NCBI RefSeq assembly: GCF_037392515.1
Contig: NC_090280.1
Coordinates: forward strand, 29,145,118 to 29,209,117
Direction of reading: 5' to 3'
DNA length: 64,000 nt
Source: Haliotis asinina
Lineage: Eukaryota; Mollusca; Gastropoda; Lepetellida; Haliotidae
Of the stretch, positions 10,201 through 61,507 are shown one piece after another; the first letter of the stretch is position 1, and each line of letters begins with the position of its first letter. A program made the translations under genes and the position numbers. The notes under the pieces were generated by a model that worked only from the letters and a program-made list of their open reading frames with translations, was not told where the DNA came from and made no database searches.

Positions 10201-13200
10201 TCCTTCCCGTCTTCTTTCTTCTCGTCCATGGCAGTTGGTTAGGCCGCAAGTCGATCTAACATTAACTGCGTTTAAAAAAATAGATACTAATGAATTACAT
10301 TATAAACAAGAATTTAATCAGTTGAAAAATAATTATACAAATTATAAATCCTTCTGTATAGCGGCTTGTACCACTGTCACTTGATCCAGAACAATATCTT
10401 CTAGATTACCGGATAGCAGTTCTATTTTCACAGTTGAAGCAAACGCCATATTAACGGCTCTTAATTATATTCAAAGACGTCCTAAACATTAACACTATAT
10501 AACTGATTCAGACTCTCGTTCTTGTCTTCAGACTATTAAAAACCTATCATGTAAACATCCACCTTTAATAGAAATTATTGAATTGTATAATGATCTTGCT
10601 ACTGGCCATTGCGACATAGTTTTTTGTTGGTTATCCAGCCACGTAGGCATTTCTGGGAATACAGTAACCGATCTTGCTGTCAAGACAAGGCAAGCACTCA
10701 ACAAATCTGTGACACCACTTCTTATTTCATGCTCAGATTCTAAAGCTACCATAAGAACTTATATTCGTGGTCTGATTCAAAAGAAGTGGGACACTCAAGC
10801 TGGTATCAATAAACTGCATGAAATAAAACCTTATATTGATTACACCAACTTGGGTTGTCAGTCCAGATAGGAGGCGGTCATTATGCGACGTTGTCGTATT
10901 GGCCATACGCGGTGTACGCACGAATACTTGTCAAAAGGTGAGGGTCCTCCGCTCTGCATCCCTTGTGATGAAAGAATCAAGAGTCAAGCCTGTTTTGCTT
11001 GACTCTGTTGAATATTCCATCACAAGGGATAACTATTTTAACTATTTTTAACTATGAAGGATCTTTTTAGTTTCCATTTAATTATTGCATTTTTGAAAGC
11101 ATTTGTTAAATGACTTGTAAATATGTATATTTTTATTGTTGATAGTCTAGAGTAGTAACTGAGATTGTTAGTGGCTGTACCCTCAAAGGCGGTCGAAGTA
11201 TTGTAAAATTATTGTCCTCCCGAGAGGGTACGTATGTCCCAAAACATTCCGACGTTAATTCAGTTCTGCCAAACTTTTAAATGTAGGATGTTTGTTGGTT
11301 TTGATAATGTCTAAATGTCAGTATAATCGCCAGTGACCGAAATGCAAGAATGATGCAACTCCAGCTAAGGTCCGTGCAGGTATCAAAGGTACTGTAAGTC
11401 CTCATCTTGGTCCCTAGTGTCGTGATCTACCTTCAGTTGCTGGCAATCTATAGCCTATTTATATATTGTGTTATCCCCTATAGGTAAATATTTTAGAATT
11501 AATGACTAGTTTTAGTTGTATATCTGTGATATTCTAGCAATTTTACTGTCCTTTGCTGACAGGATTATATACTCAATCTTTCATTATTGTTACTCTATCT
11601 ATTGTTTTAGTCACGGTGCGGCTGAAATATTGCCAAAGTGACTTTAAATTTTAACTCACTCACTGTAAGTCCTCATGGACACAAGTATGGTGATCTACTT
11701 TCGGTTCAGCTCATATTTGATAAACGAGTTAAACAGTTGTTACATGTTACTGTCATTCAGTGGTTATAAAAATCATTTACACCATACATTGTACCAAACG
11801 CGTCTACTTTGTCTAAGTGACTGCGTACCATATTACAATATTACAATACTACAATATTAATTGTGTACAATATTAATTTCTTTTATTCAGTGGCCCCAAA
11901 GCCCTAGTCGCCATGGTTATCCGGACCCCACCTATCTCCAGGACCAATCACTGCAGAGAAGGACATTTCTAACATATCTTCGACAACTGGAAAACTATGG
12001 TCATCAGATCGACAACATGATCTGGGAAATGAAAGGTTTGCCAGCAGAAGCGTTCACATTCGAAAGCTCTACTAAATGCAGAGTCAACTGTACAAGTGTG
12101 AATATAATATGAGCATGACATCTGTTCCAGCAGTATTACATATGTATGTACGATGTTGTTTGCAAACAAATTGAGTCTGAACCAGACAATCCAGTGACTG
12201 TCACCGTGCAATGCGATGATAACGTATGGTATAATTCAAAATAGGGATTTCCATCGTTTTGTAAACGAAATCGGTTTTGGAAATGTCTTCCACATGTCTA
12301 CCTACGTTTTGAAAGCTTTACTTAACTTCTTTTAGTCTTGATTTATGTTTCGCGTGAAAAAAGACAGTGGATGTGAAACGAGCTGCTGTTGCTTGAATTC
12401 TTGAGGAGAGAACACTGATTAGTGGCCGTCATTTCAAATCTCCGAATATCACAGCCACACAACAGAGTTCAGCCACATTTGCAAGTGCCCTCAAATTACA
12501 CTCTGTCCTGAATACATCATTGACGTCTTTTCCAGTCTTTGTTGTTCCTTTCCAGGTCTGTACTGGCCCAACTGGATAGATAAATCTCATCACCAAGGTA
12601 TATTTCCAAACAATGTTGCTGCCGCATCCGAGTTTGTGTCACTGATGGTTCAGAGCTGCAAAGACTACACGGGAGGAAAACTTCCTGCTATTTTTGAAGT
12701 CATAAATGAACCTGATTGGGACGAAGACATCATTGACCCACAAACGAATATAAACTACCACAGGGCTGTCGCCGACAAACTGAAGTCTAGATTCGGAATG
12801 AAAGTTGCTGGACCAACATATACCAGTATGGCCTTACGGCAGTCAGATGAAAACAACTTCAGCTCCTGGAAGAGAACTGCTAAGTTTCTGGACATGTCTC
12901 TTGATCACTTGGACTTTTTCTCTTTCCATTCCTACAACCATCTGTATAATCTATCGAGCAACGCCTACTTTGGCATCAACGAAGCTCGTCTTTTTGCTTC
13001 TCTTGACATGGTGGAGAATTACTCTCACCTCAAGAAAGGCAAAAATGTTCAGTTGGTTAACACTGAATTCGGAGTAGGCCTACTTAACCTTGGCATTGGA
13101 CCCAGTGTTGAAAATGGACGGACTCAGTTTCATACAATTTATCAAGCAAACGGTTTCATGTTTTCTTTCCTTAACCTGAGAGAGTTTATGGACAGAGCTA

Positions 13201-14015
13201 CAATATATCTCCTCACAAATGAACAATACCCAGGCCATACATCCCTTCGAAATTCTTTATTTACCTCTGATGGTCATAGTCTTCAGGCCACCAAATTCTT
13301 CACGTTTTGGAAAAACTTTATTGACGCTCAAAAGTTTCTACGGCTTTCTGGTCAATACGATGGGCAAGAAAGAAGCGTTTCACCTCTTGCTCTTGCAAAC
13401 CCCCACACGAAAGAGCTGGTAGTTCTTCTCCATAACTTTGGCAGTAAATCTGAGAATGTAAAACTGGACTTTTCAAACAACTGGCTCAACCCTTCTTCAG
13501 GTGAACAGACATGTATTGTATTCGAAAATGGTAAACCAGCTGTCCATTCCAATACGCACTTTGACAGGTCAAAGCTTCACGGCAGTGTCACTCTTCCTGG
13601 ATTGTCAACTTGCTTTTACAAGTTCAAAACCAACTACAACTTTGCTGGACTACCCACAGACAACCAGAACACATACTATGGCAAGGACATGATCATCCCT
13701 ATCAGCAACGGACATGCAAGGACAACCATCAGTGTACCGAGTTCTGGCTACCATGAGGCTTATCTTAGAGTGGGAATCAGCCGAGCCAAGAATGATAATG
13801 CACAACCCAAGGCAGTTATGTTCAATGGCCACAGGTTGTCTTCAAGCCACATGCTGTTTGATTCTATGAAGACTAAAGGTAAAACAAAATGGAACGTGTG
13901 GGAGTTCATGGTCCCTCACTCATGGCTCCACGCAACAAACACCGTGACCTTCACCTTTGATGGAAACGGTGGCCACGTAACGTCCGTTGCACTAGTTGCT
14001 GGAAAACTTCAATAA
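4039..14015 (+). CDS. Gene A: secreted GH86-like beta-agarase/porphyranase, 3 exons
   Basis: Join 4039-4272, 11891-12035, 12556-14015; 612 residues. Residues 1-17 form a signal peptide ending ...SAFS before DTT, so the enzyme is exported. Residues 178 (E in VINEPDW) and 297 (E in VNTEFG) sit where clan GH-A retaining enzymes carry acid/base and nucleophile. FHSYNH near 250 is a typical active-site strand. The C-terminal third looks like beta-sandwich. Overall architecture resembles GH86 enzymes that cleave agarose or porphyran of red algae. The family call is from memory of motifs; GH39, GH79 or GH5-like enzymes are alternatives. Exon borders are gt-ag, and phases match gene B exactly. An upstream in-frame ATG at 3976 would extend the N terminus but spoil the signal peptide start. 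Intron 1 (7.6 kb) holds transposons; whether it still splices is unknown. Confidence 0.7.
4373..6370. mobile_element. TTAA-flanked DNA transposon without transposase (piggyBac-like?)
   Basis: A 1998-bp segment flanked by perfect TTAA target copies at 4369-4372 and 6371-6374. The ends are inverted repeats: AGGGGCACTGATGCGGA at the left and AGGGGAACTGATGCGGA (reverse complement) at the right, 16 of 17 matching. TTAA duplication is the hallmark of piggyBac, and also of Kolobok elements. The interior is AT-rich with no ORF above about 80 codons, so this is a non-autonomous derivative. It lies inside intron 1 of gene A. Confidence 0.75.
6375..7930. other. Intron 1 of gene A, no feature recognised
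   Basis: AT-rich intronic sequence. A 154-codon open stretch at 6381-6845 has no recognisable domain and begins at a non-ATG codon, so it is not called. Confidence 0.4.
7932..8185 (+). mobile_element. Degenerate SINE
   Basis: Matches the middle and 3' part of the SINE family seen intact at 60130-60398: 'ggtgaccgatgggatcgggtagtaaggatcgctgacttgg', then 'tcccagcttcgtaaatc', 'aactggattgtttggcccagactcgat' and 'ccgccatatgaaac'. The stem-loop tail is truncated and the (ACTC)n tail is lost. Located in intron 1 of gene A. Confidence 0.65.
8238..10098 (+). mobile_element. 5'-truncated LINE copy with RT and RNase H remnants
   Basis: Begins inside the reverse transcriptase, just before the catalytic FVDD motif, and runs through thumb, RNase H and the 3' UTR ('attgtcctcctgagagggtacg' near 9760). 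Readable blocks include FVDDF near 8310, PPLGRKIKPFLSSTGIELKN near 8975 and RNase H FTDGSKDGGAVAC near 9175. Frames are broken many times, and part of the C-terminal region is deleted near 9700. The FVDD-coding segment is tandemly duplicated. The element is dead and lies in intron 1 of gene A. Confidence 0.85.
10099..11664 (+). mobile_element. Second 5'-truncated LINE copy
   Basis: Starts at the LINE region reading ...YKKSSLVPPLGRRIKPFL and carries a broken RNase H, the C-terminal cysteine/histidine region, and a full 3' UTR ending TTAACTCACTCACT at 11651-11664. Several stops and frameshifts. It follows the previous copy directly, head to tail, in intron 1 of gene A. Confidence 0.85.
11665..11890 (+). 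other. Residual intron 1 sequence before exon 2
   Basis: Begins with about 55 bp resembling an internal LINE 3' UTR piece ('gtaagtcctcatgg', 'agtatggtgatctactttc'). It then continues as AT-rich intron ending in a pyrimidine-rich tract and the acceptor 'ttttattcag'. Confidence 0.5.
11891..12035 (+). CDS. Gene A exon 2
   Basis: 145 nt: 48 codons plus one base, phase 0 to phase 1. It begins WPQSPSRHGYPDP and ends ...NMIWEMK, and the split Gly codon is completed by exon 3. The acceptor is ttcag and the donor is gtttgc. Same length as gene B exon 2. Confidence 0.75.
12556..14015 (+). CDS. Gene A exon 3 (catalytic barrel and C-terminal sandwich)
   Basis: 1460 nt from the acceptor 'tttccag' to the TAA stop at 14013-14015. 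It carries both putative catalytic glutamates (NEPDW and NTEFG), the FHSYNH strand and the whole C-terminal domain ending LVAGKLQ. Open throughout, no lesion. Identical in length to gene B exon 3. Confidence 0.85.
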
Positions 14016-17536: not shown

Positions 17537-20500
17537 GTACGTATCGCATGAAGACCTATTACATTACAAAACGTTTTATGAGTTTGGTTTCACGCCGATT
17601 ACAATAATCCAGCAATATCACCGCGGTGGGACACCAGAAATGGGCCTTCTAAACGTAGTATTCTTGTTGTTTTAATTTTGGCCAACATGTCCTACAATCG
17701 CCAGCAGCTGAAGGGATGATGTAAAGCCAACTGGGGCCCATGTAGGAAGCAAAGGAACTGTAAGTCTCCATGGTCCCTGGTATGGTGATCTACTTTCAGT
17801 TCCTGGCGATCTATAGCCTGTTTTTATATTGTATTGTCTAAATAGTGATTTTTGTTTTAACTTCCCACACTAGTTTTAAGTCAAATTGTGATATTATAGT
17901 TGTTTTATAAGACACATATATTCCATTTCAGTGTTCTCGTCACGATACGGCTGCAATATTGCCAATTTGACGTTAAAGATTAACTCACTCACTCACTCAC
18001 CTATGTGAGGAATCGAACCCGGATCCAAGCTCCACAAACTCAGACTCTGGATCGCAGCACAGATTTGCTTTGTACAATGACAATCTGGTGTGAATACTAA
18101 ATAGCTACATGTACATTGTTGTGATGTACCTTCTGAATTCAGACAACGTGCAGCCGTTTACAGCTTGAAGTCTGTTTCATAATGCCTCGTCCTGTATAGG
18201 TAAAATGTTTTAAAACTAATTACCAGGTTTAAGTATACATTTGTGATAAACTAGCTTTTTTTACCGTCCTCCACTGACAGGTGTTTGTAATTTACTTGTA
18301 ATTATTATGAATGTATATCTTGACATAGTCACAAGATCGATAAAATACCAGGGTCTTATAATAGCATGATATGACTGAATAGTGTAGAACCCATGTCCAC
18401 ATTGTGTAGTACGCATTGCTACCAATCTTGCAAAATGCTCTCAAATAAAAACACACCTCCATTGTTCTATCGCCTGACAACTTGACTTGACACAACATGA
18501 TGCATGGTTAGTAACGGAAGTTGTGAAAGAATACCCCCAGTTCTTTGTTATTGGTCACCAAATTCGAAAATACCAAACATATCGCGTTAAAATTGATCTT
18601 CGGTCAGTCTCTCTGAATTGATAGACAGATGTCATGGTATCCCAGTTGCGTAGATCGATGTCCATGCTGGTGATCACAGGGTTGTCTGCTACAGACTTCA
18701 CATCGGCAATTTTTCAGCCATATCGTCACGTAAGCAAGTTTGACCCGTGAAGGCCCGGGTCAGATAGTAACCCATGCTTGTCGTAAAAGACGACTAAAGG
18801 CATCTGGTGGTCAGGCTTGCTGACTTTGTTGACACATATCATCGGTTCCCAACTGCGCAGGGGGATGCTCATGCGCTTGATCAGTGAACTGTCTGAGGGC
18901 AATACAGTATAGAAGTGATCCAGCTGGGGTCTGCATTCAGACGTGTGGTGTATTTTGACTAATGTCTGGAAGGTACACCCTTAACTTCATACCCAGGGTA
19001 TTTTCCACGACCTTCTGACCCAAGGATTTGTTACAGTAGTGTTTCTTTTCTGCTCTTTGTCTCGGGTATTTGATGGTTCGAATCTAAAATTACATTTGAA
19101 GTTACAGAGTACAACCTCGTCAACCTTCCCACTAAATGTTTGACACAAGGAGAATCTTATAGAGTCTTTGTCACTGGTAGGAGGCGGGATGGGAGTAGGA
19201 AGGTGAACCCATGCCTTGCATCCACGATTGCCTCTCCTGTTACCAAGGAATGAGTGAGTGAGTTAATATTTATCGTCACATTGGCTATATTTCAGCCATA
19301 CGGTGACGGTGACGGGAACAATCAATTCTCATAAAAGTATACATTATGTACATATACAAATATGTTGATGATGAACAGTGAATGTACTAGAATATCACAG
19401 AGAAGGAAAACACTAGCAGATAATTTCAAAATCACCAGCAGCCTACTAGGGACCATGGGGACTAACATTACTTTAGCTACATACATTCATCCTAGTTGGA
19501 TTTACATTATAACTTCCGTTATTAGTGATTGATTAAGTTACTAAAGGTCAACAAGTGTGCGTTTCATTTGAGACGACCCCAAAGTCTTCACAGTTAATGC
19601 TAATCAATTCATGTTGTACTATTATTTTCAGTGGCCCCAAAACCCAAGTCGGCATGGTTATCCAGACCCCAAGTATCTCCAGGAGCCAGCTCTCCAAAGA
19701 AGAACATTCCTAACATATAAGAGACAGATTGACGGCTATGGAAAAGACATCGACAACATGATCTGGGAAATAGAAGGTTTTACGGCGCTTATGAAAACAG
19801 CATTTGAATTGTTTAGGGTGACTGCAAGCAAAACAGATGGAGGATAGCTATTTATGAGTGTCAAGTTGAACTGAGAACACAAGGCATGAATTACTGTGCC
19901 ATTGGTTAGAAAAGGGATTCCCATTTAGACCCTAAGATATGAATCTTAAGAATGACGCTGACCTTTCATTTAATCAGTTGGTTGCTTTGTTGCTTAACGC
20001 CACATTTGCTATATAATGACGGCCTGTAAGTAATAAAGTCTAGACCAGATAATACAGTGATAGGCATCATGAGTATCGATCCACGCAACTGGGATACGCA
20101 TGGCTATGGGTTACCGAAGATCAGTTCTAGCCCAGATCTTCAAGGGTCTCATTTGTTGTAACTGTCTACAACGTAACCTGTCCACATACAGTCTTTCTGG
20201 GATGAGGATCTGTAAACTGCAATGAATATCTTTCTTTCTCACTCCGCATCTTGTTGTTTACAGGTATGTTCTGGCCCAGCTGGATGAATATGTCTCAACA
20301 CCAAGGTAGGTTTCCAAATGACATGGACGCTGCATCAGAGATGGTGTCACTGATGGTCCAAAGCTGCAAAGACTACACGGGAGGAAAACTTCCTGCTATT
20401 TTTGAAGTCATAAATGAACCTGATTGGGACGAAAAGTATGTTAATCCACAAACGAACGTAAACTTCCACAAGGCAGTAGCGGATAAGCTGAAATCAAGAT

Positions 20501-21723
20501 TTGGAATGAAAGTCGCTGGACCATCATATACCAGTATGGCCTTACGACAATCAACTGAAAACAACTTCAGCTCCTGGAAGAGAACTGCTAAGTTTCTGGA
20601 CATGTCTCTGGATCACCTGGACTATTTCTCTTTCCATTCCTACAACCATCTGCATGACATATCAGGTCACAGTTACGCTGGCATCAATGAAGCCCGTCTG
20701 TTTGCTTCTCTTGACATGGTGGAGAATTATTCTCATATCAAAAAAGGTAAAAAAGTTGAGTTAGTAAACACTGAATTTGGATTAGGTTTAAACAGCTTGC
20801 AAATGGGGCCCAATTTTGAGAATGCAATGACAGACTTTCAGACTATTTATCAATCAAACGGTTTCATGTTTTCTTTCCTTAATCTGAGAGAGTTCATGGA
20901 CAGAGCCACCGCGTTTCTCCTTTCAAATGAACAATACCCAGGCCATACGTCCCTACGGAATTCCTTATTTACAAAAGACGGTCATCCTCTTACCGTGTCG
21001 CAGTTCTACGTATTTTGGAAAAACTTTATTGACGCTCAAAAGTTTCTCCGAGTTTCTAGTCTGTACAATGGGCAAGAGAAAACACTGTCACCACTTGCCC
21101 TTGCAAATCCTAACACCAAAGAGATGGTAGTTCTTCTCCACAACTTTGGCAGTAAATCTGAGAATGTGAAACTGGACTTTCCTAATAACTGGCTCAATCC
21201 GTCTTCGGGTGAACAAACATGTATTGTGTTCGAGAATGGTAAAACAGCTGTCCATTCCAATACGCATTTTGACAGGTCAAAGCAACATGGTAGTGTCAGT
21301 CTTCCTGCAACCTCAACCTGCTTCTACAAATTCAAAACTAACTTTAACTTTGGTGGACTACACACAGATAATCAGAACACATACTATGGCAAAAATATGA
21401 TCATCCCCATTAGCAACGGACATGCGCAGACGACCATCAGTGTACCGAGCTCTGGCTACCATGAGGCTCGTCTTAGAGTTGGAATTAACCGAGCCAAGAA
21501 TGCCGATGCGAAACCTAAGGCAGTTACGTTCAATGGAAATGCGTTGTCTTCAAGCTACATGTTGTTTGATTCTATGAAGATTGAAGGGAAAACAAAATGG
21601 AATGTGTGGGAATTCGTTGTCCCTCAGTCACAAATCCATGCGACCAACACCATCAGCATGACCTTTGATGGGAACGGTGGCCAGGTAACATCCGTTGCTC
21701 TCATTGCTGGAAAACTTCGGTAA
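17303..21723 (+). CDS. Gene B: secreted GH86-like beta-agarase/porphyranase, 3 exons
   Basis: Join 17303-17536, 19632-19776, 20264-21723; 612 residues, exactly the length of gene A. Signal peptide 1-17 (MILQVLCTSLLLGAVFS). The putative acid/base E178 is in VINEPDW and the nucleophile E297 in VNTEFG, with FHSYNH between them, followed by a C-terminal beta-sandwich region. All introns are gt-ag (2095 and 487 bp). Predicted role: extracellular hydrolysis of red-algal galactans (agar or porphyran) in the gut; the exact substrate is unknown. Start chosen at 17303 rather than 17282 because it aligns with gene A and begins the hydrophobic leader. Gene B is the least disturbed member of the cluster. 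Family name rests on motif pattern, not on a search. Confidence 0.75.
17645..18000 (+). mobile_element. LINE 3' UTR copy in gene B intron 1
   Basis: UTR-only LINE insertion with all landmarks ('gtagtattcttgttgtttta', 'cgccagcagctgaaggg', 'gtaagtctccatggtccct', 'cgatctatagcctg') and the terminal stem-loop. It ends in (ACTC)n at about 17985-18000. Confidence 0.85.
18001..19250. repeat. Intron 1 of gene B with SINE and LINE shreds
   Basis: Recognisable scraps: a reversed tRNA-type B box 'ggaatcgaaccc' at about 18009; LINE UTR at 18180-18290; SINE middle at 18605-18690 ('gatcgatgtccatgctggtgatcac'); and SINE head and middle at 18745-18930 on the + strand ('ccatgcttgtcgtaaaagacgact', 'catcggttcccaactgcgcag'). 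Nothing coding. Confidence 0.6.
19251..19520 (-). mobile_element. LINE 3' UTR copy in gene B intron 1
   Basis: Starts with 'gtgagtgagttaatatt' and the stem-loop 'cgtcacattggctatatttcagcca', then UTR landmarks to 'ctagttggatttacat'. Inverted relative to gene B. Confidence 0.75.
19632..19776 (+). CDS. Gene B exon 2
   Basis: 145 nt, WPQNPSRHGYPDP to ...NMIWEIE plus one base of a Gly codon. Acceptor ttttcag, donor gtttta. Confidence 0.8.
20036..20112 (-). mobile_element. SINE fragment in gene B intron 2
   Basis: Short reverse-strand piece of the SINE middle ('agaccagataatacagtgat', 'atcgatccacgcaactgggatac'). Confidence 0.5.
20264..21723 (+). CDS. Gene B exon 3
   Basis: 1460 nt from the acceptor 'tttacag' to the TAA at 21721-21723, which overlaps AATAAA. 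It encodes the barrel with both catalytic glutamates and the C-terminal domain ending LIAGKLR. Confidence 0.85.
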
Positions 21724-21861: not shown

Positions 21862-22010
21862 CATCTCCTCAGATTGTAGATGGGGAAGGCCTAATGCTTG
21901 AAGCGTCCGGGTTCGATTCCCCATATGGGTAACATGTACGAAGTCAATTTCTGGTGTTCCCTGTCGTGATAATACTGAAATATTACTAATAACGGCGTGG
22001 ACTTATGATA
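21862..22010 (+). mobile_element. tRNA-derived SINE of a second type
   Basis: Contains a perfect RNA polymerase III B box, GGTTCGATTCC, at 21909-21919, embedded in a tRNA-like context ('gggaaggcctaatgc...' before it). The body 'tggtgttccctgtcgtgata' and 'ctgaaatattactaataacggcgt' follows. That body matches the sequence at 51515-51570. The tail is lost. Confidence 0.6.
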
Positions 22011-22773: not shown

Positions 22774-24487
22774 CACCATCAAGGCCTAAGACTTTGTCTT
22801 GGGTCGTTCAGAACTTCACCTATTGACAGTCTCTACGTTGAGCCTGATGAACCATCTCTTACTCAACTGTCTTTACAATACATTACTAAATTATATTCTA
22901 ATGAATGTAATCCTACATATAATTGTGTGTTTAATCCACTTTATGAAAATTTATAGGACCAGAGGTCTTCTCTTGTTCCACCTCTAGGGCATAGAATTAA
23001 ACCCTTTCTTTCTTCGGCCGGCATTGAGCTGCAAAACATAGCTCCCTCCCGTCTTCTTTCTTCTCCTTAGCAGTTGGTTAGGCCACATGTTGACCTAACA
23101 TTAACTTCATTTAAAAAATCAGAAACTAATGAATTACAATATAAACAAGAATATAAACGATTAAAAACTAAATATAGCAATCACAAAGCCTTATTTACAG
23201 ATGGTTCCAAGCACGATGGTGCAGTAGCTTGTGCCACTGTCATTGGATCCAGAACAATATCTTCTACAATTCCAGGTAACAGCTCTATTTTTACAGCAGA
23301 AGCTAACGCCAAACTAACAGTTCTTAAATATATTAAAAGACACCCTAAACAGAAACAGTATATAATCTATTCCGACTCTCTTTCTTGTCTTCAGGCTATT
23401 AAAAATGTTTCTTGTAAATATCCACTTTTAATTGAAATTATTGAGTTGTATAATAATCTTGCTACTGACCAATACGACATCGTCTTCTGTTGGTTACCCA
23501 GCCACGTAGGCATTTCTGGTACTTCTTATTCCTTACACTGATTACAAAGCTAGCATTAGAACTTACATCCGTGATCTGATGCAGAAGAAGTGGGGCACCT
23601 AAGTAGGTATAAATAAATTGTATGAAATAAAACCGTATATTGGTTACACCTACTTTGGCTGTCAGTCCAAATTTGAAGAGGTTATTTTAAGACGATGCCG
23701 TATTGGCCACACTAGATATACTCATGTATATTTGTTAGAAGGTGAGGATCCTCCGTTTTTTATCCCTTGTGATGAGAGAATCACGGTCAAGCATATCCTG
23801 CTTGACTGTATTGAATTCTCCATCACAAGGGATAAATATTTCAATGTCAAAACTGTCAAGGATCTTTGTAACACTGTTAATTCTCATTTAATCATTGGTT
23901 TGTGAAAGTAAATTGATTTCTTGATTGAATTATGAGTAGTATGTGCTGTAAATAGATGTATTTTAATGATTGGCAGTTTATATTAGTAACTTGAATTGTT
24001 AGTGACTGTACCCTCATAGCGGGTAAAAGTATTGTAAAATTATTGTCCTCCTGAGAGGGTACGTAAGTCAAAAAAAAACATTCACAGTAAATTTAAATCT
24101 ACCAGGTTTTTAATCGTAGTATTCTTGTTGTTTTAATTTTGGTTAGCATTTTGTACACTCGCCAGCAGCTGAAGGGATGATGTAAGTCCAGCTAGGGTCC
24201 ATGTAGGTAGCAATGGTTCTGTAAGTCCCCATGGTACCTAGTATAGTGATCTACCTTCTGTTGTTGGCGATCTATAGCCTGTTTTTATATTGTATTGTCT
24301 AAATATTATATTAGTTTTAACTTTTCATGCTAGTTGTAATTGAAGTTGTGATATTCTAGTTGTTTTACTGTCCTTCGTTGACAGATATTTACAATATGCA
24401 TATATTTCATTTAATTGTTCATTTAAGTGTTCTCGTCACGATATGGCTGAGCTATTGCTGATGTGACGTTAAATATTAACTCACTCA
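22774..24487 (+). mobile_element. 5'-truncated LINE copy with intact target duplications
   Basis: Starts in the RT thumb, then carries the RNase H domain (FTDGSKHDGAVAC near 23200, TAEANAK near 23300, YSDSLSCLQAIK near 23360), the C-terminal Cys/His region and the full 3' UTR with stem-loop and ACTC tail. Frameshifts at about 22850 and a deletion at about 23520 inactivate it. Its flanks are exact 15-bp duplications, so the insertion is fairly recent. The target already contained 'aactcactct', matching the LINE tail. Confidence 0.9.
23074..23541 (+). pseudogene. LINE RNase H domain fragment
   Basis: 155-codon open stretch of ORF2 with the RNase HI acidic residues in TDGSK, TAEANA and SDSLS. 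It ends in FCWLPSHVGISG, where a deletion shifts the frame. Part of the dead LINE around it. Confidence 0.8.
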
Positions 24488-26210: not shown

Positions 26211-26286
26211 GCATATGCGGAGAGGTAGCCAACGTTACACGCCTTCAAAGGCATATGCGGAGAGGTAGCCAACGTTACACGCCTTC
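26211..26286 (+). repeat. 40-bp tandem duplication
   Basis: The unit starting gcatatgcggagaggtagcc occurs at 26211-26250 and again from 26251. It lies in LINE ORF1 next to the pogo fragment. Confidence 0.8.
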
Positions 26287-27275
26287 GTTCTGGCTCACTT
26301 CTTGTTGAATGTGCCCGGAGGCAGCAATCTGTAAACTTGCTAGGATTACAAAATTTCGTTGATGCACGGGTTGTTGTCTCTGTGCACAGGACATGGAACT
26401 CTTGCAGAGGTATTGTTCGTGACCGATCTCGTTGTCTGGCGTACATGACAGAAGAAGAAATTGTTGATGCATTAAAACACCAAGGAGTAACTGTTGTTAA
26501 ACGGTTTACCAGGAAGCAGAATGCAGATATCATTAAAACTAATACTGACATGTTTACGTTTGGACTGTGTTCTCTACCAAAAGCCATTAAAGCTGGCTAC
26601 TTTAACATCCCAGTTGATGTATACATCCCAAATCCGCTGCGATGTTTTAAGTGCCAAAAATGTGGACACGGTGCCAAGTCATGCACTCGTAAAACAGTAT
26701 GCACCCGTTGCAGTGGGTCTCATGACAACACTGACTGCACAAGAGACATCCGATGTGCTAATTGTAACGGTGAGCACGTGGCATCGTCTAAAACAGGATT
26801 CTTAAAGTCAAAATCACTAACAACCTCTCCTACCAAGACGCCAAAAAGTTGATACCCGCAGTGTCTCAAATTACTCCACTCCGAACATATTCAGCCACTG
26901 TGTATTCCCTCGTTCATCCTCCTGTAACCAAAGTTTCAACTTCATGCCAGACATATCTTGGGTAAACGACAAACAAATTACAGTTAATGAATTCACTCAG
27001 TCCTCTCAAAATCAGCAAATTTCGTCGACATCTGCCTCACAGACTGAAGAACCAGAGACACAATCTAATCCAGGAAAGGTTAGTCAGTTGTCAAATAAAG
27101 AAAAGAAACAGCTGCGAAGGGCAAAGGCTCTTCAACATTTAGAGGTACCATCAACATCAGCAACATCAGTGACGGTTCATAATCCGTTTGGACCTCTTGA
27201 TATGGAGGTCACTCCTTCGCAACCAGAACGCGGGAGTAGACGTTCCTCGCGTTCAAGATCCCCGGTTCAACCGCC

Positions 27276-30200
27276 ATGAACAGCACTATTAATTTAATTC
27301 AATGGAATTGTAGAGGCCTTCGGAATAATTTTAATGATCTACAATTATTAGCTCAAGATTTTAATCCATCGGTTTTTAGTTTACAAGAGACACACTTGAA
27401 AAGTACTAACTTTGAATTGCGTCGGTACAATTCATTCCATTCCTTCTCACCTCCAGGTGATAGAGCCACCGGTGGCGCTTTTATTATCGTGAGGCAGGAT
27501 GTTATCCACAGCCCGGTTCCTCTCAAAAGCAATCTGCAAGCTATTGCTGTCCGTCTCACTTTACAGATCACCTTTACGCTTTGCTCTTTGTATATTTCTC
27601 CTTCTACAGCTCTTCGACAGTCCGATCTTCAGGATCTCTTTGACCAACTTCCTCGACCATGTATAATCATGGGTGATCTTAATGGACATAATCCTTTGTG
27701 GGGAAGTACCGACACCAACAATAAAGGAAAACTCCTGGAAGATTTCATTTCAAACAATAACTTATGCATCTTTAATGATGGATCTGTCACATATTTACAT
27801 CCTGGTTCGGGAACTTATTCTGCACTCGATCTGTCCCTCGCAGACCCAACTGTTTATAACGAATTTGAATGGTCAGTTCACGATGACCTGTGTGGAAGTG
27901 ACCATTTTCCAACAATACTTTCCTCTATAAATCAGAGTGATGACTCATCTGCCACACGGTGGAATTTTAATAAGGCTAACTGGCCATTATTTCAGACAAT
28001 GTGTGCTGGCAACTTGAACTCTGCCGTTTTTGTTAATGTTTCAGATCCGATTCAGTTGTTCTCTGACAAACTGAAAAGTATTGCCGATGAAACTATTCCT
28101 AAGGCCTCTGCTAAACCACATGTTCGTAGACCATGGTTTACGGACAGTTGCAAACAAGCTAGGAAGTGTAGAAAGAAGGCAGAAAAATATTTTCGCCACC
28201 ACCCTACAGTTCATAATTTAAATACTTTTAAAATAAACAATGCCAAGGCTCGACGTACTTTTAAACAAAGTAAACGCCAATCTTGGAAGACCTTTGTATC
28301 GAATATTAATTCACGTGCACCAATGACAAAGGCGTGGAACATGGCACAGAGAATCAAGGGTAAAGGTAGAAATTCTAGTGTTCATCATCTATTTTAAAAG
28401 ATGGACCCGAGGTTTTAACTGATAAAATTGACATTGCAAACAAATTGGGTGAAACTTTAGCTAGGCATTCTTCTTCCTCAAACTGTAATACAAAGTTTCA
28501 GAAATATAAAGATCAACAAGAAAAACGTAATATTAACTTTCATTCTGATAATGGTGAAGATTATAATGAACTCTTTTCACTATACGGCAACAGGTGCTGA
28601 TACTATCCACTATCAGCTCCTGAAACATTTACCTAATACATGTCTTGAAACTCTTCTGAACATTTGTGATCATATTTGGACAACAGGCCATTTTCCTCCG
28701 TCGTGGAGTCAAGCCATTGTTGTACCTATACCTAAGCCTGGTCGGGATCATACAGATCCATCAAACTACAGACCTATTTCACTAACTAGCTGCGTTTGCA
28801 AGACCATGGAACGCATGGTCAATAATAGATTAGTGTGGTTTTCAGAATCCAATAATCTTATTACTAACATCCAATGTGGTTTTCGCAAAAATAGAAGCAC
28901 TATTGGCCATTTGGTTCGACTAGAATCATTTGTTAAAAATTCCATTGTCCATAACCAGCATGCTGTATCAATCTTTTTCGACCTTGAAAAAGCTTATGAT
29001 ACAACATGGAAATATGTTATCTTAAGAGATTTACATGATTTTGGTTTGAGAGGCCGTTTGCCTCATTTTATATCACAATTTTTAGCAGACAGTCAATTTC
29101 AAGTCCGTGTCGGATCATCCCTGTCTGACCATTATAATCAGGATCAGGGGGTTCCACAAGGCAGTATTTTGTCTGTTACTTTGCTTAGCATACAAATCAA
29201 TAGTCTCTCGAAAGTATTACATGATTCCATAGATGGGTCATTGTTTGTGGATGATTTTAATGTTTCATGTCGTGTTAAAAATATGCATACCATTGCGAGA
29301 CAATTACAGATGTGTTTAAATGAAATTCATAAACGGTCACTTGAAAATGGATTTAAGTTTTCACAGATAAAAACCAAATGTATACATTTCTGTCGGAAAT
29401 ATAAGCCTCATAAAGATCCTGAACTGTTTTTAGATGGCTCTCCAATTACCGTTGTAAAGGAAGCCAAGTTTCTGGGACTGATTTTCGACAAACATTTGAC
29501 CCTTTTACCACATATTAAGTATTTGAAGACCAAATGCCTGAAAGCATTAGATCTCCTAAAAATGGTGTCCAATTTAAAGTGGGGAGGGGATCAAACTACC
29601 CTCCTTCATTTGTACAGATCACTCATCCGATCAAAGCTTGATTATGGTTCCATCGTGTATGGCGGGGCCTGTCGAAGCAACTTGAAACTGCTTGATTCTA
29701 TCCATCACCAAGGTTTAAGACTTTGTCTTGGATCTTTCAGCACTTCTTCTATTGACAGCATTTATGTTGAAGCCGATGAGCCTTCTTTAACCCAAAGACG
29801 TATTAAATTATCTTTGCAGTACACTACTAAACTATATTCGAATCAGACGAACATTGCATATAACTGTGTATTCCATCCCCTCAATGAGAATCTGTACAAC
29901 AAAAAATCTTCTCTTGTTCCACCTCTAGGGATAAGGATTAAACCTTTCCTTTCTGCTGCTGGCATTGACCTAGAAAATATTTCTCCTTCTAGTCTGCTGT
30001 CTTCTCCTTGGCAATTGGTTAGGCCACAAGTCGACCTAACCTTGACTATATTTAAGAAATCAGAAACGAATGAATTACAATATAAACAGGAATATAACCA
30101 ATTACAAAGTAAATATAATACATATAAATCCATATTTACAGATGGGTCCAAGTATGGTGGGGCAGTGGCTTGTACCACTGTCGTTGGATCCAAACCAGTA

Positions 30201-30836
30201 GAAGCAAACGCTATATGAACAGCCTTAAAATATACCAATAAACATTCCAGATATAAGCAGTATATAATCTTTTCAGACTCTCTTTCGTGCCTTCAGGCTA
30301 TTAAGGGTCTTTCTACCAAACATCCACTTTTAGTAGAGATTATTGAATTGTACTATGATCTTGCTACTGGCCAATACGACGTCGTCTTTTGCTGGTTACC
30401 CAGCCACGTTGGCATTTCTGGGAACACACTTGCCGCCAAAGCAGCACTCACCAAATCTATGACACCACTTCTTATTACATACTCTGATTATAAAGATGTC
30501 ATCCGATCTTACATTCGGGATCTTATGCAGAAGAAGTGGGACACCCAGGTAGGTATCAATAAATTACATGAAATTAAACCCCACATTGGTTACACCTACT
30601 TGGGCTGTCAGTCTAGATTTGATGAGGTCGTCATAAGGCGGTGTCGTATTGGCCACACTAGATATACTCATGAATATCTATTGAAAGATGAGGATCCTCC
30701 GTTCTGTATCTCTTGTGATGAAAGAATCACAGTCAAGCATGTCTTGCTTGACTGTGTTGAACATTCCATCACAAGGGATAAGTATTTTAAAACACAAACC
30801 ATGAAGGATCTTTTTAGTAATCTTAATAATCATTAA
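27276..30836 (+). pseudogene. LINE ORF2 (endonuclease, reverse transcriptase, RNase H), broken
   Basis: Endonuclease: QWNCRG near 27300, LQET near 27390, GDLNGHNPLWGS near 27680, SDHFP near 27895. RT: GFRKNRST near 28880, FFDLEKAYDTTW near 28980, GVPQGSILS near 29150 and FVDDF near 29250, where motif C is FVDD. RNase H: FTDGSKYGGAVAC near 30140 and SDSLSCLQAIK near 30280. C-terminal region: RRCRIGHTRYTHEYLL with CISC...H. All pieces but one are in the same frame; the 28390-28580 stretch is shifted. A 42-nt deletion in RNase H and TGA at 30216 add to the damage. Confidence 0.85.
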
Positions 30837-31304
30837 TTATCGCATATTTAAAAGAATTGGCTTTGTTATCCGATTAGTGAAAAGATAAATATTTTATAAG
30901 TGGTCATTTGGATTATTAACTGCGATTGTTAGTGGCTGTACCTTCAAGGGGGGTTGAATAGAGTAAAATTATTGTCCTCCTGAGAAGGTGCGTAAGTCCC
31001 AAGGCATTCAAAGGTAATTTAAATTGACCGTCTATTTTAATTGTAGTATCCCTGTCATTTTAATTTTGGCTAAAATTCACTTCATCGCCTGCAGCTGAAG
31101 GGATGATATAAAATCCAGCTAGGGTCCATGCAGGTAGCAAAAGTACTGTAAGTCCCCATGGTCCCTAGTATAGTGATCTACCTTCAGTTGTTCGACCTTC
31201 GACGGATATTTTAGATTGATTACCTTGTTTTCATCGCTATATGGCTGTAATATTGCCGATGCGATGTAAAAATTTAACTCACTCACTCACTCACTTTGGC
31301 CAAT

Positions 31305-42797: not shown

Positions 42798-43846
42798 CAC
42801 GGGAAGGTATCATTAAATTACATGAAATAAGATCCGTGAAGGTCCCGGGGTAGAATAGGCCTTAAGCAACCCATGCTTGCCATAAAAAGTGACTGTGCTT
42901 GTCGTAACAGGCGACTAACGGGATCAGGTGATCAGACTCGCTGACTAGGTTGACATATGTCATCGGTTCCCAATTGCGCAGATCGATGCCCATGTTGTTG
43001 ATCACTGGATTGTCTGGTCCAGACTCGATTATTTACGGACCGCCGCCATATAGCTGTAATATTGCTGGGTGCGGCGTAAAAGTAAACTCACTTACTCACA
43101 CGAAATAAAACCATATATTGGCTACACCTACTTGGGTCCAGATTTGAAGAGGTCATTATGCGACGATGTCGTATTGGCCATACGCGGTATGCACATGAGT
43201 ACTTCTTAAAAGGTGAAGATCCTCCGTTCTGTATCCCCTGTGATGAAAGAATTACAGCCAAGCATGTTTTGCTTGACTGTGTTGAATATTCCATCACAAG
43301 GGATTACCATTTCAAATCACGAACTATGAAGGATCCTTTTAGTTATATTAGATATCATTTAATCTTTGCGTTTTAAAAGAACTAGACCTGTTATATGACA
43401 CAGCAGACCTGTTACAAACATAAATAGATAAATATGCTATGGTTTTAAGTTGAATTAGCAACTAAGTTTGTTAGTGGCTGTATCCCCGAGTGGGATTGAA
43501 GCACCGTAAAATTACTGACTCCCTGTTGAAGTCAGATTTAATCTTCCACAATTTTAGTTGTAGAATATGTGTGATTTTAAATTCTGGCTAATCTTGCATA
43601 CAGTCGCCAGCAGCTGAGGGGATGGTGTAAATCCAGTTAGGGGCCATGCAGGTAGTAGAGGTACTGTAAGTCCCCATGATCCCTAGTATGGTGATCTACG
43701 TTCAGTTGTTGGCGATCTATGGCCCTTTTTTATATTGTACTGTCGAAATAGTGATACTATTGTTTTGTAAGTTTCCATGCTAGTTTTAAATACTAACTGT
43801 GATAGTCGAGTGGTTTTCCTGTCCTTCGTCGACAGGTTCTTCATAA
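42798..43846 (+). mobile_element. LINE 3' segment interrupted by a SINE
   Basis: Begins 'ggtatcattaaattacatgaaa', the LINE region coding GINKLHEIK. It is interrupted by a SINE (42833-43100), resumes 'gaaataaaaccatatattggc', continues with RCRIGHTRYAHEYFLKGEDPPFC, and ends with the 3' UTR at about 43846 where a (TA)n tract begins. Confidence 0.85.
42833..43100 (+). mobile_element. SINE inserted in LINE, with target duplication
   Basis: Full-length member of the family seen at 60130-60398: head 'ccgtgaaggtcccggggtag', tail stem-loop 'ccgccgccatatagctgtaatattgctgggtgcggcg', then ACTC repeats. Flanked by gaaataaga (42824-42832) and gaaataaaa (43102-43110), an imperfect duplication of LINE target sequence. 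Confidence 0.8.
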
Positions 43847-45001: not shown

Positions 45002-45105
45002 TTTTTAATGTCACGTATGTTCTCGTCACGATATGGCTGCAATATTGCCGATGTGACGTTAAATATTAACTCACTCACTCACTCACTCACTCACTCACTC
45101 ACCCA
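45002..45105 (+). mobile_element. LINE 3' terminus with long ACTC tail
   Basis: Terminal stem-loop (CGTCAC 45024-45029 paired with GTGACG 45053-45058) followed by 'ttaaatattaa' and about ten ACTC units to 45102. This is the clearest copy of the terminal structure. Confidence 0.85.
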
Positions 45106-47047: not shown

Positions 47048-48067
47048 TTAGTACTTTGTTAGACCTCCTCGCTCAGCAATGCATGCCTGAATACGCCTAG
47101 GCACACTACCCATCAAAGTTTGTAGGTAATCGTGTGACAGGGTATCCCAATATTGGACCACCTCGGCCTTCATATCTTCAATATTTCTCAGCCCCTTTTG
47201 GTTTATTCTGTCCTTCATGACTCCCCACACATTCTCAATTGGGTTTAGGTCTGGGCTGTAACTGGGCCAGTCTAAAACTTGAACATTTTCGCCCGACAAC
47301 CACTGTTTTGTGTAGCGCGCAGTGTGTTTTGGGTCATTATCATACTGGAAAATCCAATCATCTTCATACAATGTTTGTGCTGTCGGAAGAAGGTGACCAT
47401 TTAGAATGTCAACGTATCTTTCTTTTGTCAAGTTTCCCGTGAAAACACAAAATGGCGTCACTCCGAGAGCCGATATGCCACCCCACATGTGAAACTTCGG
47501 GCTATGTTTTGGTCGCTGGTAGTTAGGTTTGACAGTATCTTTGGTCCACATTTTCACACATTTAGGGAAAAGCCAAACAGAACTTTCATCCGAAAAGAAA
47601 ACATTATCCCAATCTTGATTTTCATGAGCCCGACACCAGTTTAAACGTTTTTCCTTTTGTGCATCTTTCATCAACGGCGAGGGAATTCCACGTTTTTTCA
47701 CCCAATTAAGTCTCTGTAATTCCTGCCTAACTGTTGCATTGCATACCTGAGGACTTCCTCTGCTAATCATTTCATTTCTGATGTTCTCAACACTTTTCAA
47801 TTTTCCCCTACTCACAATCTGCCCAAGTCTTCGGCGATCCACAACACTGAATTTCCTAGGCCGACATGCCCCTGCTTTGTGCTCTATCCCGGTTCCTGTT
47901 TGAATATTCTTCAAAGTTCTGTATACTGTAGACAGAGGAATACCATGTCTACAAACTAACACTTTAGCATCAGCCTCACCCCTTTCAAAATCATCTAGAA
48001 TGAGCTTTCCTTTCTCTCTTGCTGTAAATTCTGCCATGTCAACACAGGAAGCCGTCTGCTCAGACAA
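47048..48067 (-). CDS. Tc1-like transposase, DD34E
   Basis: 339 residues, uninterrupted. N-terminal helix-turn-helix DNA-binding region (about 11-120) with an ACRPRKF GRPR-like linker at 67-73. The DDE catalytic domain has D160 (FFSDES), D243 (QYDNDPKHTA) and E278 (NPIENVW); 34 residues separate the last two, the DD34E spacing of Tc1 enzymes. The enzyme binds the terminal repeats and performs cut-and-paste transposition into TA. The start could be M1 or M11 (MAEFTAREKG). The frame fills most of the element and stops 120 bp before its left end. Confidence 0.9.
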   Translation of the reverse strand: MSEQTASCVDMAEFTAREKGKLILDDFERGEADAKVLVCRHGIPLSTVYRTLKNIQTGTGIEHKAGACRPRKFSVVDRRRLGQIVSRGKLKSVENIRNEMISRGSPQVCNATVRQELQRLNWVKKRGIPSPLMKDAQKEKRLNWCRAHENQDWDNVFFSDESSVWLFPKCVKMWTKDTVKPNYQRPKHSPKFHMWGGISALGVTPFCVFTGNLTKERYVDILNGHLLPTAQTLYEDDWIFQYDNDPKHTARYTKQWLSGENVQVLDWPSYSPDLNPIENVWGVMKDRINQKGLRNIEDMKAEVVQYWDTLSHDYLQTLMGSVPRRIQACIAERGGLTKY

Positions 48068-48125
48068 GGGAGATAACTCTTGACGTAATGAGCTGCCTTC
48101 TAAGCCTTCAAGAGTTGTCTCCCTT
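48066..48125. repeat. 17-bp inverted repeat at the transposase start
   Basis: AAGGGAGATAACTCTTG at 48066-48082 and CAAGAGTTGTCTCCCTT at 48109-48125, one mismatch, 26-bp loop. It lies just upstream of the transposase ATG inside the Tc1 element. Confidence 0.8.
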
Positions 48126-48253
48126 ATTTAGTATGCTAGTGAAAGCCCTTTTTCCAATCTTAGCATCACTAGAAAAAAACAAAGATTTTCTCAATAATTT
48201 CTGGGAACACTGTACATTCTACATTTATATATTTGGGTTTTTTTATTTAGTAT

Positions 48254-48566: not shown

Positions 48567-49187
48567 ATTTCCAGAGGAGCACGAGTCAATAATTCACTTG
48601 GTCCGGAAATAACACAGGTTTGACAGGAATGCCGCACCATGCCGATGTTAAAAACATAAATAAGTCACTGCCATACGCTGGTTGGCCTTGGCTCACCATA
48701 GTACATGAAGGTGCGGCTAGGCAACCTAGTTTATAAAGCGTTCAAAGGCCTGGGTGTGATTTCCTACATGGTTCAATACTTGGGGCCAATTGCTTGTGTC
48801 CCCTGCCTTGATATTGCTGAAACATTGCTAGAAGTTGGTTTTTTTGTGTTTGGGTTTTTTTTTTGTTATATGAAGCTAACCTTATTAAGTAACTGATAGT
48901 TTTTAAAACATTGGCATCCTCTTAAAATCCACATGTGGTGATATATTGCGAATACTCTTTGATAAGCAAGGTGAAAAAAAAACATCGTACCCTCACATTC
49001 GCCATTTACTGGATGTTTCTGGGTGAAGAATCTTGAGGTTGCCACATTTCCTTTTCATTTGCTAGTTCTTTTCTTATCTCAGGTATGTTTTGTAAATTAC
49101 CAAACACCTGCCATATGCTGCTTTCAGATGTAGATTATACATGACATTAAGCTTACATGTTGGTGGAAACAAGTGTTATCCTGTACA
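48567..49187. other. Upstream region of gene C, no feature recognised
   Basis: AT-rich; a SINE-like scrap 'cttgatattgctgaaacattgcta' lies near 48812. No promoter element is convincing. Confidence 0.4.
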
Positions 49188-51480: not shown

Positions 51481-51504
51481 CATTGGGTACAATGCGTGAG
51501 GCCC

Positions 51505-51570
51505 ATTCGTGGTGTTCCCCACCGTGATATGGCTGGAAAGTTGCTAAAAGCGGCGTAAAACCATATTCAC
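51505..51570 (+). mobile_element. SINE tail (second type) terminating gene C
   Basis: 'ggtgttccccaccgtgatatggctggaaagttgctaaaagcggcg' followed by 'taaaaccatattcactc'. This is the body and 3' end of the SINE type also seen at 21862-22010. Gene C homology ends just before it. Confidence 0.65.
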
Positions 51571-51796
51571 TCTTTTGTCGCAAGTAAATGATGGTAATAA
51601 TGTTCCAACGGATGGTCACAACTTGTCACACTTGTTATCAACTTGTGTTCTACCCCAACCTGCTCAGTATTCATGTATGTTTGTGCCTAGTACAATTGCA
51701 GTAAACACATCAACAGGTTTCGGTCAGGTGTCTGCTGTGATGTTATTCATATTCAGAAGTAATAACCGAACTCGTAATTCTATTGTTGTGACAGCG

Positions 51797-60116: not shown

Positions 60117-60129
60117 TCTGCTGAGCATG
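60117..60129 (+). repeat. Target-site duplication of SINE, left
   Basis: TCTGCTGAGCATG, repeated exactly at 60399-60411. Confidence 0.9.
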
Positions 60130-60398
60130 GACCCGTGAAGGTCCCGGGGTAGAATAGGCCTTCAGCAACCCATGCTTGCCATAAAAGGCGACTCAGCTTG
60201 TCTTAAGAGGCGACTAACGGGATCGGGTGGTCAGGCTCACTGACTTGGTTGACGCGTGTCATCGGTTCCCAATTGCGCAGATCGATGCTCATGTTGTTGA
60301 TCACTGGATTGTCTGGTCCAGACTCGATTATTTACAGACCGCCGCCATATAGCTGTAATATTGCTGAGTGCGGCGTAAAACTAAACTCACTCACTCAC
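60130..60398 (+). mobile_element. Full-length SINE, reference copy for the window
   Basis: 269 bp: head 'gacccgtgaaggtcccgggg' and 'tagaataggccttcagcaac'; 'gaggcgactaacgggatcgg'; a B-box-like 'catcggttcccaattg'; 'gttgatcactggattgtctg'; terminal stem-loop CGCCGC (60340-60345) with GCGGCG (60370-60375); tail AACTCACTCACTCAC. Flanked by an exact 13-bp duplication. It interrupts the coding sequence of the decayed gene around it. Confidence 0.92.
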
Positions 60399-61507
60399 TC
60401 TGCTGAGCATGCCTTTAATTAAAGCCGATACATCTAAGAGACTGAAAGATCTTGTTCTAAATTATGTCTACCTGTGGAAGCTCTACAACAGTGTGATTCA
60501 ACACGAGGGAATAAGTTTATATGCTTTGTGGCAGACCCTCTTCCTTCGTTTGGTATTTTCGAAGTACTGTGCTTACCGCGATCGTCACCAGAGCCAGGAA
60601 GGCCAGTTGTAGAATCATAGTAATGAATTCTTTTTTGAGAAATATCCAATGTTGATAAGTAGAAGTCTTTGCAACCCCGTACTTTTGACTCACTGAATTT
60701 GAAGTTGTAGGAGGGGGACTTCTGTTTTCTTGGATTCTCATTGTTTGTTCTCCTTCGTTTGACATCATTTCGGTCTATGGTTGTGACATAAAAATGATTC
60801 TTCTCATTATCTGCTAAACTCCAGAAAGATTGGAAGATGCATTTCCTTTCATTGCCATTGCTGTTTCTTGAACACTTGAAGCGACATGTGCCATTGCAGT
60901 CCTTTTTGGTTTTGATTTGTGTTTCTTTAACTTCCTTTTTAGCTGATTGTTGCTTTCTTTTTCTTATGTTTTGTTTCCAGGTATCAGGGTCACGTTTTCT
61001 TTTCCGACTTCTTTGAGCTTTATCTTCGAAATCATCAGATTCGTGTTCTTCGGTTGCTGCTACATCAACCGTTTTAGCTACTGGAATTGACTCACCATGC
61101 TGGATGTCAGAGCTGTTCAACAACATATTTTTGCCCATGTCAACCTCTTCGTCAGACGATTCACTCACATTATCTACTTCAAAATGGACTGTTGAGTCAC
61201 CTCTTTCATCATCTTCAGTAGTTTGTTCTGAATCAGCTGTCTATTCAGAGGCCATGATATTGTAACAAATTTCATGATCATGTTCCACTCCTGTTCCTAA
61301 ATCTCCACCAACAGCTTCATTTGCAAGAGGGATATCAACAATTTCTGGAATCACTTCTAGTATTTCGTTTCCTTCAGAATCAGAAACATCACGAGATGCA
61401 TCAATAGAATCAAGTAGTTCCACAGCCTTTTCTACACTCAACATTGTTGCTTATTCTAAAGGAACATTTAGGGTAATGACTTTCAACTAGACTATGAAAT
61501 AAATCAT

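Follow-up and report, generated by a model that had tools for sequence, protein, structure and literature searches.

A 3' stem-loop common to an I-superfamily-like LINE and two SINE families of Haliotis asinina, maintained by compensatory changes in its outer stem

The window analysed here is a stretch of 64,000 nucleotides from Haliotis asinina (assembly GCF_037392515.1, contig NC_090280.1, positions 29,145,118 to 29,209,117 of the forward strand), and it contains a near-full LINE. The coding part of this element comprises:

26229..27279 (+): ORF1 pieces, two overlapping open frames, with a CX2CX4HX4C zinc-knuckle motif recognized by eye
27240..28397 (+): endonuclease part of ORF2 (Pfam Exo_endo_phos_2, 5.5e-23; Exo_endo_phos, 2.1e-14)
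28461..30218 (+): reverse transcriptase part of ORF2 (Pfam RVT_1, 3.3e-32)
30219..30836 (+): remaining RNase H and C-terminal part of ORF2, in a different frame; the equivalent region of another copy matches RNase_H

No Pfam family was found on the two ORF1 pieces tested, including 26229-26852, nor on 30219-30836, and the pieces of this near-full copy, at 31 kb, gave no RNase H match of their own. The domain was detected in a second copy of the LINE, at 23071-23541 (1.1e-5; 26.1 bits against a cut-off of 25.8), and more weakly, under the cut-off, at 63106-63690 (20.6 bits). As RNase H accompanies an endonuclease and a reverse transcriptase in this family, its domain order (endonuclease, reverse transcriptase, RNase H) suggests an I-superfamily-like LINE and not an L2 element. 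L2 elements are not known to carry RNase H, and the match in the copy at 23071-23541 speaks against the L2 clade. A search with the reverse transcriptase yielded 3984 relatives at E<=0.001 out of 7990 candidates scored; the few that bore names belonged to a sea slug, a spider and the assembly of a clam symbiont.

Other genes are also present in the window. Three related open frames lie in tandem on the plus strand (12423-14015, 20206-21723 and 50347-51527), with repeated pieces 73-86% alike; the first carries a Pfam beta-porphyranase C-terminal domain and the second matches the glycoside hydrolases 5ta0/5ta1 of the PDB. Judging from these first two frames, the three appear to form a small cluster of enzymes for the breakdown of polysaccharides from red algae, which we take to be of family GH86. 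On the minus strand, 47048-48127 is a nearly whole open frame for a Tc1/mariner-type DDE transposase (Pfam DDE_3, HTH_Tnp_Tc3_2).

The 3' end of the near-full LINE forms a hairpin, and the same kind of tail is found in other LINE copies and in two SINE families, called here SINE1 and SINE2:

31232..31266 (+): LINE 3' hairpin, arms 31232-31237 and 31261-31266, stem CATCGC/GCGATG (letters, fold); at least one sister copy of this stem form exists, L043
31277..31292 (+): (ACTC)4, 3' of the LINE tail
45024..45058 (+): LINE 3' hairpin with the common stem CGTCAC/GTGACG (letters, fold)
45069..45100 (+): (ACTC)8, 3' of the LINE tail
11609..11643 (+): LINE 3' hairpin, stem AGTCAC/GTGACT (letters)
60130..60400 (+): SINE1 copy, from GACCCGTGAAGG through (ACTC)4, flanked by TCTGCTGAGCATG at 60117-60129 and 60399-60411
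60340..60375 (+): SINE1 3' hairpin, arms 60340-60345 and 60370-60375, stem CGCCGC/GCGGCG (letters, fold)
43041..43076 (+): hairpin of a second SINE1 copy (42831-43099), also CGCCGC/GCGGCG (tail profile)
51520..51555 (+): SINE2 3' hairpin, here CACCGT/GCGGCG; the usual form elsewhere is CGCCGT/GCGGCG
51516-51572, 48801-48833 and 21958-22003 (+): SINE2 copies with the shared tail (tail profile)
17579-17627 (-): SINE2 copy with the shared tail (tail profile)

Re-reading the window confirmed all the hairpin letters and coordinates that a preliminary description of this DNA had given for the elements at 31232, 45024 and 60340. In the tail, an internal loop separates an outer stem of six pairs from a short inner stem, which closes on the nearly invariant loop TGNAATATT; TAAA or TTAAA and then (ACTC)n come after the hairpin. 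Written out, the usual LINE tail is CGTCAC GATAT GGC TGCAATATT GCC GAT GTGACG TTAAATATTA (ACTC)n. The three hairpins fold as had been claimed, with minimum free energies of -12.1 to -14.9 kcal/mol over 35-36 nt (z -2.66 to -3.15), and no Rfam family reached its gathering score anywhere in the window. Searched with a profile of the 60-bp tail, the window gave 26 matches with E<0.01, 17 of which were put with the LINE by eye. The common stem had been attributed to most LINE copies; in the window it is exact in only six of the 17 LINE tails, and in the genome sample described below in 46 of 72 LINE-type rows. Likewise, the rule that (ACTC)n follows every hairpin is true of well-kept copies, but several old tails in the window are devoid of it; ten (ACTC) arrays of at least three units are present there. 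The window tails and the sampled copies place in the SINEs and the LINE a common 3'-terminal sequence with the short tandem repeat (ACTC)n at its 3' end.

Both kinds of element carry traces of their insertion. Among 32 SINE1 rows, 13 had no recognizable head and three no clear end; 15 of the 16 copies tested showed a flanking match of at least 7 bp, as against 2% of shuffled flanks, and SINE1 copies are precise insertions. For five of 12 LINE copies of the window, 13-15 bp of the 3' flank were matched upstream, versus eight of 300 random places; one of the five, at 11608, is ambiguous as it lies inside LINE sequence. The flanking duplications of SINE1 and of some LINE copies are the mark of target-primed reverse transcription. 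The majority sequence of SINE2 shows A- and B-box-like TAGCCTAGTGG and GGTTCGATTCC by eye. ARAGORN, with default settings, predicted no genes in the SINE1 and SINE2 majority sequences, and Rfam detected no tRNA in one SINE1 copy nor in 51380-51600; a tRNA origin of SINE1 was therefore unsupported by Rfam on that copy and by ARAGORN on the majority sequences.

The proposal that the stem is kept by compensatory changes originally relied on a few elements. The chance of six Watson-Crick pairs surviving four random substitutions on 12 arm letters is 0.004-0.013, depending on the transition bias, so that one chosen example is suggestive and a larger sample of copies bears the case. The core ATATNGCTGNAATATTGC occurs in 52,306 exact copies in the genome assembly (1.143 Gb, its first 16 contigs being of 50-106 Mb), against none for the reversed control. 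Copies were collected from 18 stretches of 10 kb spread over the genome and from 98 short stretches taken from the first 100 of the 52,306 core places, all within C1:0.4-3.4 Mb and hence not genome-spread. We kept 183 rows, setting aside 99 with no recognizable 3' flank; removal of rows with a poor core, and of those that merely mirrored the near-palindromic core on the reverse strand, left 135, and the 130 whose 3' internal loop measured 3 or 4 nt were used. These filters act on core and flank, not on pairing, and they favor well-kept copies.

In this sample the outer stem was fully paired, G.U allowed, in 80 of 130 copies, 56 among the 72 of LINE type and 24 among the 58 of SINE type. Two or more copies were seen for each of eleven arm pairs, and eight of them are fully paired with G.U counted: CGTCAC/GTGACG (46 copies), CGCCGC/GCGGCG (12), CGTCGC/GCGACG (4), CATCGC/GCGATG (2), AGTCAC/GTGACT (2) and three further G.U variants with two copies each. 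AGTCAC/GTGACT in the LINE and CGTCGC/GCGACG in SINE1 are two-sided stem forms beyond those noticed previously. The latter marks a SINE1 subfamily (L072, L075, L079, L082 and 1854 genome places) whose copies, among those listed, differ very little from one another, as would be expected of young elements. Each of the three recurrent arms that do not pair (CGTCAC/GTGACA, CATCAC/GTGACG and CACCGC/GCGGCG) is one CpG transition off a paired form, and a single CpG transition likewise separates 11 of the 50 copies with a broken outer stem from some recurrent paired form. We take these broken stems as decay after insertion. A SINE family amplified with a disrupted stem would have spoken against the proposal, and no disrupted form in the 130 copies resembles an amplified family. 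The hairpin loop was TGGAATATT, TGAAATATT, TGCAATATT or TGTAATATT in 112 of 135 copies, most sampled sites having been picked by this very core. With respect to the inner stem, covariation had been claimed between GGC/GCC in LINEs and AGC/GCT in SINEs. This stood for the LINE and SINE1; SINE2, however, carries TGC/GCT, with a U.U mismatch at the first inner pair, and T-T stands at this position in 16 of the 135 copies sampled, the majority of them SINE2. The inner-stem claim is therefore right in two of the three families.

Paired-site covariation was evaluated against a phylogenetic null, in which the tree was built from unpaired columns and flanks only and the parsimony changes of each stem column were re-placed randomly on its branches. 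Over the 130 copies, same-branch double changes preserving the pairing of the outer stem numbered nine, against a null mean of 1.96 (0 of 1000 replicates), and five fell on internal branches, against 0.51 (0 of 1000). The paired cells amounted to 85.5% versus 51.6% under the null, and the covariation score was 0.37 versus 0.18 (4 of 1000), while a control with slid partners gave no internal double changes on the tree. The result stands with equal branch weights, with LINE rows alone and with the 121 rows that have a near-consensus loop (internal changes, 3 of 500). Within the SINE rows alone, total double changes were in excess (2 of 1000) and internal ones were not (1 versus 0.19; 178 of 1000). 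The number of further pair types showed no excess on the tree (12 versus 13.3; 824 of 1000), nor in an alignment of seven family members (8 versus 7.8; 304 of 500). From these seven members RNAalifold recovered the helices unaided; all 42 outer cells were paired, 98.4% of all cells were paired in the named structure, two-sided cells numbered 11, compared with 2.8 after shuffling and 0-2 when partners were slid, and at least two Watson-Crick forms occurred at four of the six outer pairs. The stem-loop is thus maintained by compensatory changes in its outer stem, the first inner pair failing in SINE2.

Genome-wide counts, which are of copies and not of events, point in the same direction. With the LINE core fixed, the outermost LINE pair was C..G in 4698 copies, A..G in 114, C..T in 141 and A..T in 309, whereas independent change of the two arms would predict about 3.4 copies with A..T (about 90-fold fewer); the A..T list contains some shifted or decayed arms and apparent segmental repeats. 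SINE1 searches in which the inner five pairs were all specified gave, for pair 3, 4979 C-G, 1854 T-A and 321 T.G. Six sites of the A..T list, in C4:44303373-45947405, have identical hairpin letters on one strand at a spacing of about 0.3 Mb; they are perhaps a segmental duplication or an assembly repeat.

We consider it likely that this hairpin is the 3' recognition tail of a LINE of the stringent type and I-superfamily order, borrowed by two SINE families. The view that it is what a reverse transcriptase would recognize was put forward in the preliminary description, and it is supported, as far as sequence goes, by the covariation and by the position beside the terminal repeat; in elements with target-site duplications, this is where target-primed reverse transcription would start. 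By analogy with zebrafish and eel L2 elements, we infer that the LINE protein grips the hairpin. In the mechanism we propose, this protein would bind the stem by its shape and the loop by its letters, position the (ACUC)n end at the nick in the target and begin reverse transcription there, and a SINE transcript bearing the tail would be copied by the LINE machinery. If the stem is read chiefly by shape, its letters would be free to change pair by pair, with the loop staying constant. In support of this idea, the cited parts of a study on zebrafish L2 report that a swapped stem was tolerated, but a broken stem or an altered loop was not (PMC4176376).

The resemblance of the tails could also reflect ancestry alone, the SINEs having taken LINE tails whose matched changes arose by chance or CpG decay with no selection on pairing. 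One-sided CpG changes are indeed common, as the broken copies illustrate, two CpG decays could have turned G-C into A-U at pair 2 in the copy at 31232, and shared descent inflates the copy counts. This explanation is nevertheless contradicted by the tree null. Furthermore, C-G becomes A-U at pair 1 only through two transversions, and CpG decay therefore does not account for copies about 90-fold above expectation, and the C-G to T-A change at pair 3 of SINE1 lies outside CpG; we regard ancestry alone as very improbable. Tail swapping, by template switching or gene conversion, would carry both arms at once, and most double differences would then be a few old events spread around, as might be suggested by sampled LINE copies in which one hairpin follows upstream sequences that are very different. 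Swapping spreads paired stems but cannot create new ones, and four of the six outer pairs occur in at least two Watson-Crick forms; swapping would reduce the number of independent events and leave the conclusion intact. We assign it a small but appreciable probability.

It is unlikely, in our opinion, that the pairing serves another RNA step, such as stability, 3' processing, nuclear export or ribonucleoprotein assembly, instead of recognition by the reverse transcriptase. Sequence cannot tell which protein reads the hairpin, and the L2 data come from another clade. On the other hand, the hairpin is common to a coding LINE and non-coding SINEs and adjoins the terminal repeat where reverse transcription starts, and a comparable L2 hairpin is bound by the ORF2 protein, according to the cited sections of PMC4176376. 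An inverted repeat acting as DNA after insertion, as a cruciform or a protein-binding palindrome, would be preserved by Watson-Crick changes as well. However, the common SINE2 form CGCCGT/GCGGCG (exact in 3 of 135 copies, and in more with decay) has a T-G pair, which fits RNA and not DNA, the loop and flank are strand-specific, and dead copies decay freely, all of which makes a role as DNA extremely improbable.

A recognition tail of this kind has precedents. Judging from the cited passages of PMC4176376 and PMC3747384, it resembles those of zebrafish ZfL2-1 and ZfL2-2 and of eel UnaL2 with UnaSINE1/2, where LINE and SINE have in common a 3'-terminal stem-loop with a conserved loop, a tolerant stem and a short terminal repeat. 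In contrast to our case, those L2 elements have another loop and repeat and their recognition has been shown by experiment, while the abalone LINE has RNase H. Hairpins of plant L1-clade LINEs and monocot SINEs, with compensatory LINE-SINE stem changes and conserved loop letters, were reported earlier, as the part of PMC3747384 cited here indicates; they differ in belonging to the L1 clade and to plants and, going by a figure legend, in having fewer variants. The tail that the Gecko SINE has in common with Aedes I-clade LINEs (MosquI and others) is listed in Table 1 of PMC3747384; this is an insect system, likened by its description, and the Gecko account within the cited part mentions no hairpin. 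Among mollusks, the cited portions of PMC11203168 and PMC10294476 document Nimbus (Nimb) and Ingi LINEs of the I superfamily in gastropods and bivalves, and in these portions "hairpin" and "stem-loop" have no occurrence and no 3' hairpin is described. MetaSINEs, the V-SINE RUDI and the gastropod and bivalve SINEs are, like SINE1 and SINE2, short retroposed molluscan elements, and either of our families may already be named among them. We found no earlier account of this hairpin in the literature searched, a comparison outside which the two main molluscan SINE papers lie (doi 10.1093/gbe/evv257, evw029).

A relative of the tail was identified outside the abalone. The LINE alignment retrieved six loci in bacterial genomes, three of them 54-56% identical (L001-L003), of which only L002 reaches the 3' end. 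These three are animal-type LINE sequences on contigs filed as bacterial: L001 is on a Sulfurovum MAG (JALTVI010000075.1), and L002 (NZ_JRAA01000003.1) and L003 (NZ_MPRK01000159.1) are from Solemya gill symbionts; they are probably host contamination. L002, a bivalve-type LINE on a Solemya velum gill-symbiont contig, with a reverse transcriptase that is 54% identical, is probably host DNA within the symbiont assembly. About 370 nt past its RNase H stop, at 8760-8793 and beyond, its tail reads TGTCCC AATAT AGC CTTTCTGT GCT GAC GGGACA TTAAACCC (ATTCC)3. All six outer pairs form, and two of them, U-A at pair 1 and C-G at pair 5, depart from the common LINE stem; this single sequence has a modest fold by itself (z -1.8). 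The layout common to both LINEs is stem, ATATRGC, loop, GCYGA, stem, TTAAA and short repeat. The tail pattern had no match in bacterial genomes, and three patterns gave none in viral contigs, where searches with the LINE protein and the LINE alignment also yielded no confirmed hit. The bivalve-type pattern occurred in five viral contigs with neither hairpin nor repeat around it by eye, and was taken as chance.

This relative makes it conceivable, although somewhat short of probable, that the tail is an old recognition module of molluscan I-superfamily LINEs, whose layout outlasted the split between gastropods and bivalves while its stem was rewritten pair by pair and its repeat switched between ATTCC and ACTC. 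Two SINE families would have taken the tail, with the loop as the code read by the protein and the stem as a drifting handle that marks lineages.

In summary, the pairing of LINEs with SINEs through a 3' stem-loop was already known, and so were compensatory changes between the stems of plant L1 and SINE tails, as the cited parts of PMC3747384 attest; our work adds an I-superfamily-like case in a mollusk, in which a single tail is borne by two SINE families and the stem occurs in a series of natural variants. A LINE partner is known for few molluscan SINEs: the sections cited of a 2023 study of bivalve SINEs give donor LINEs for three of eight described families (PMC10294476). Recognition of hairpin tails has been dissected in L2 elements, as set out in the cited text of PMC4176376. 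As a single genome supplies 52,306 exact copies of the core, and the stem occurs naturally in at least five forms, the rule that the stem is read by shape and the loop by letters would be directly testable in these molluscan elements.
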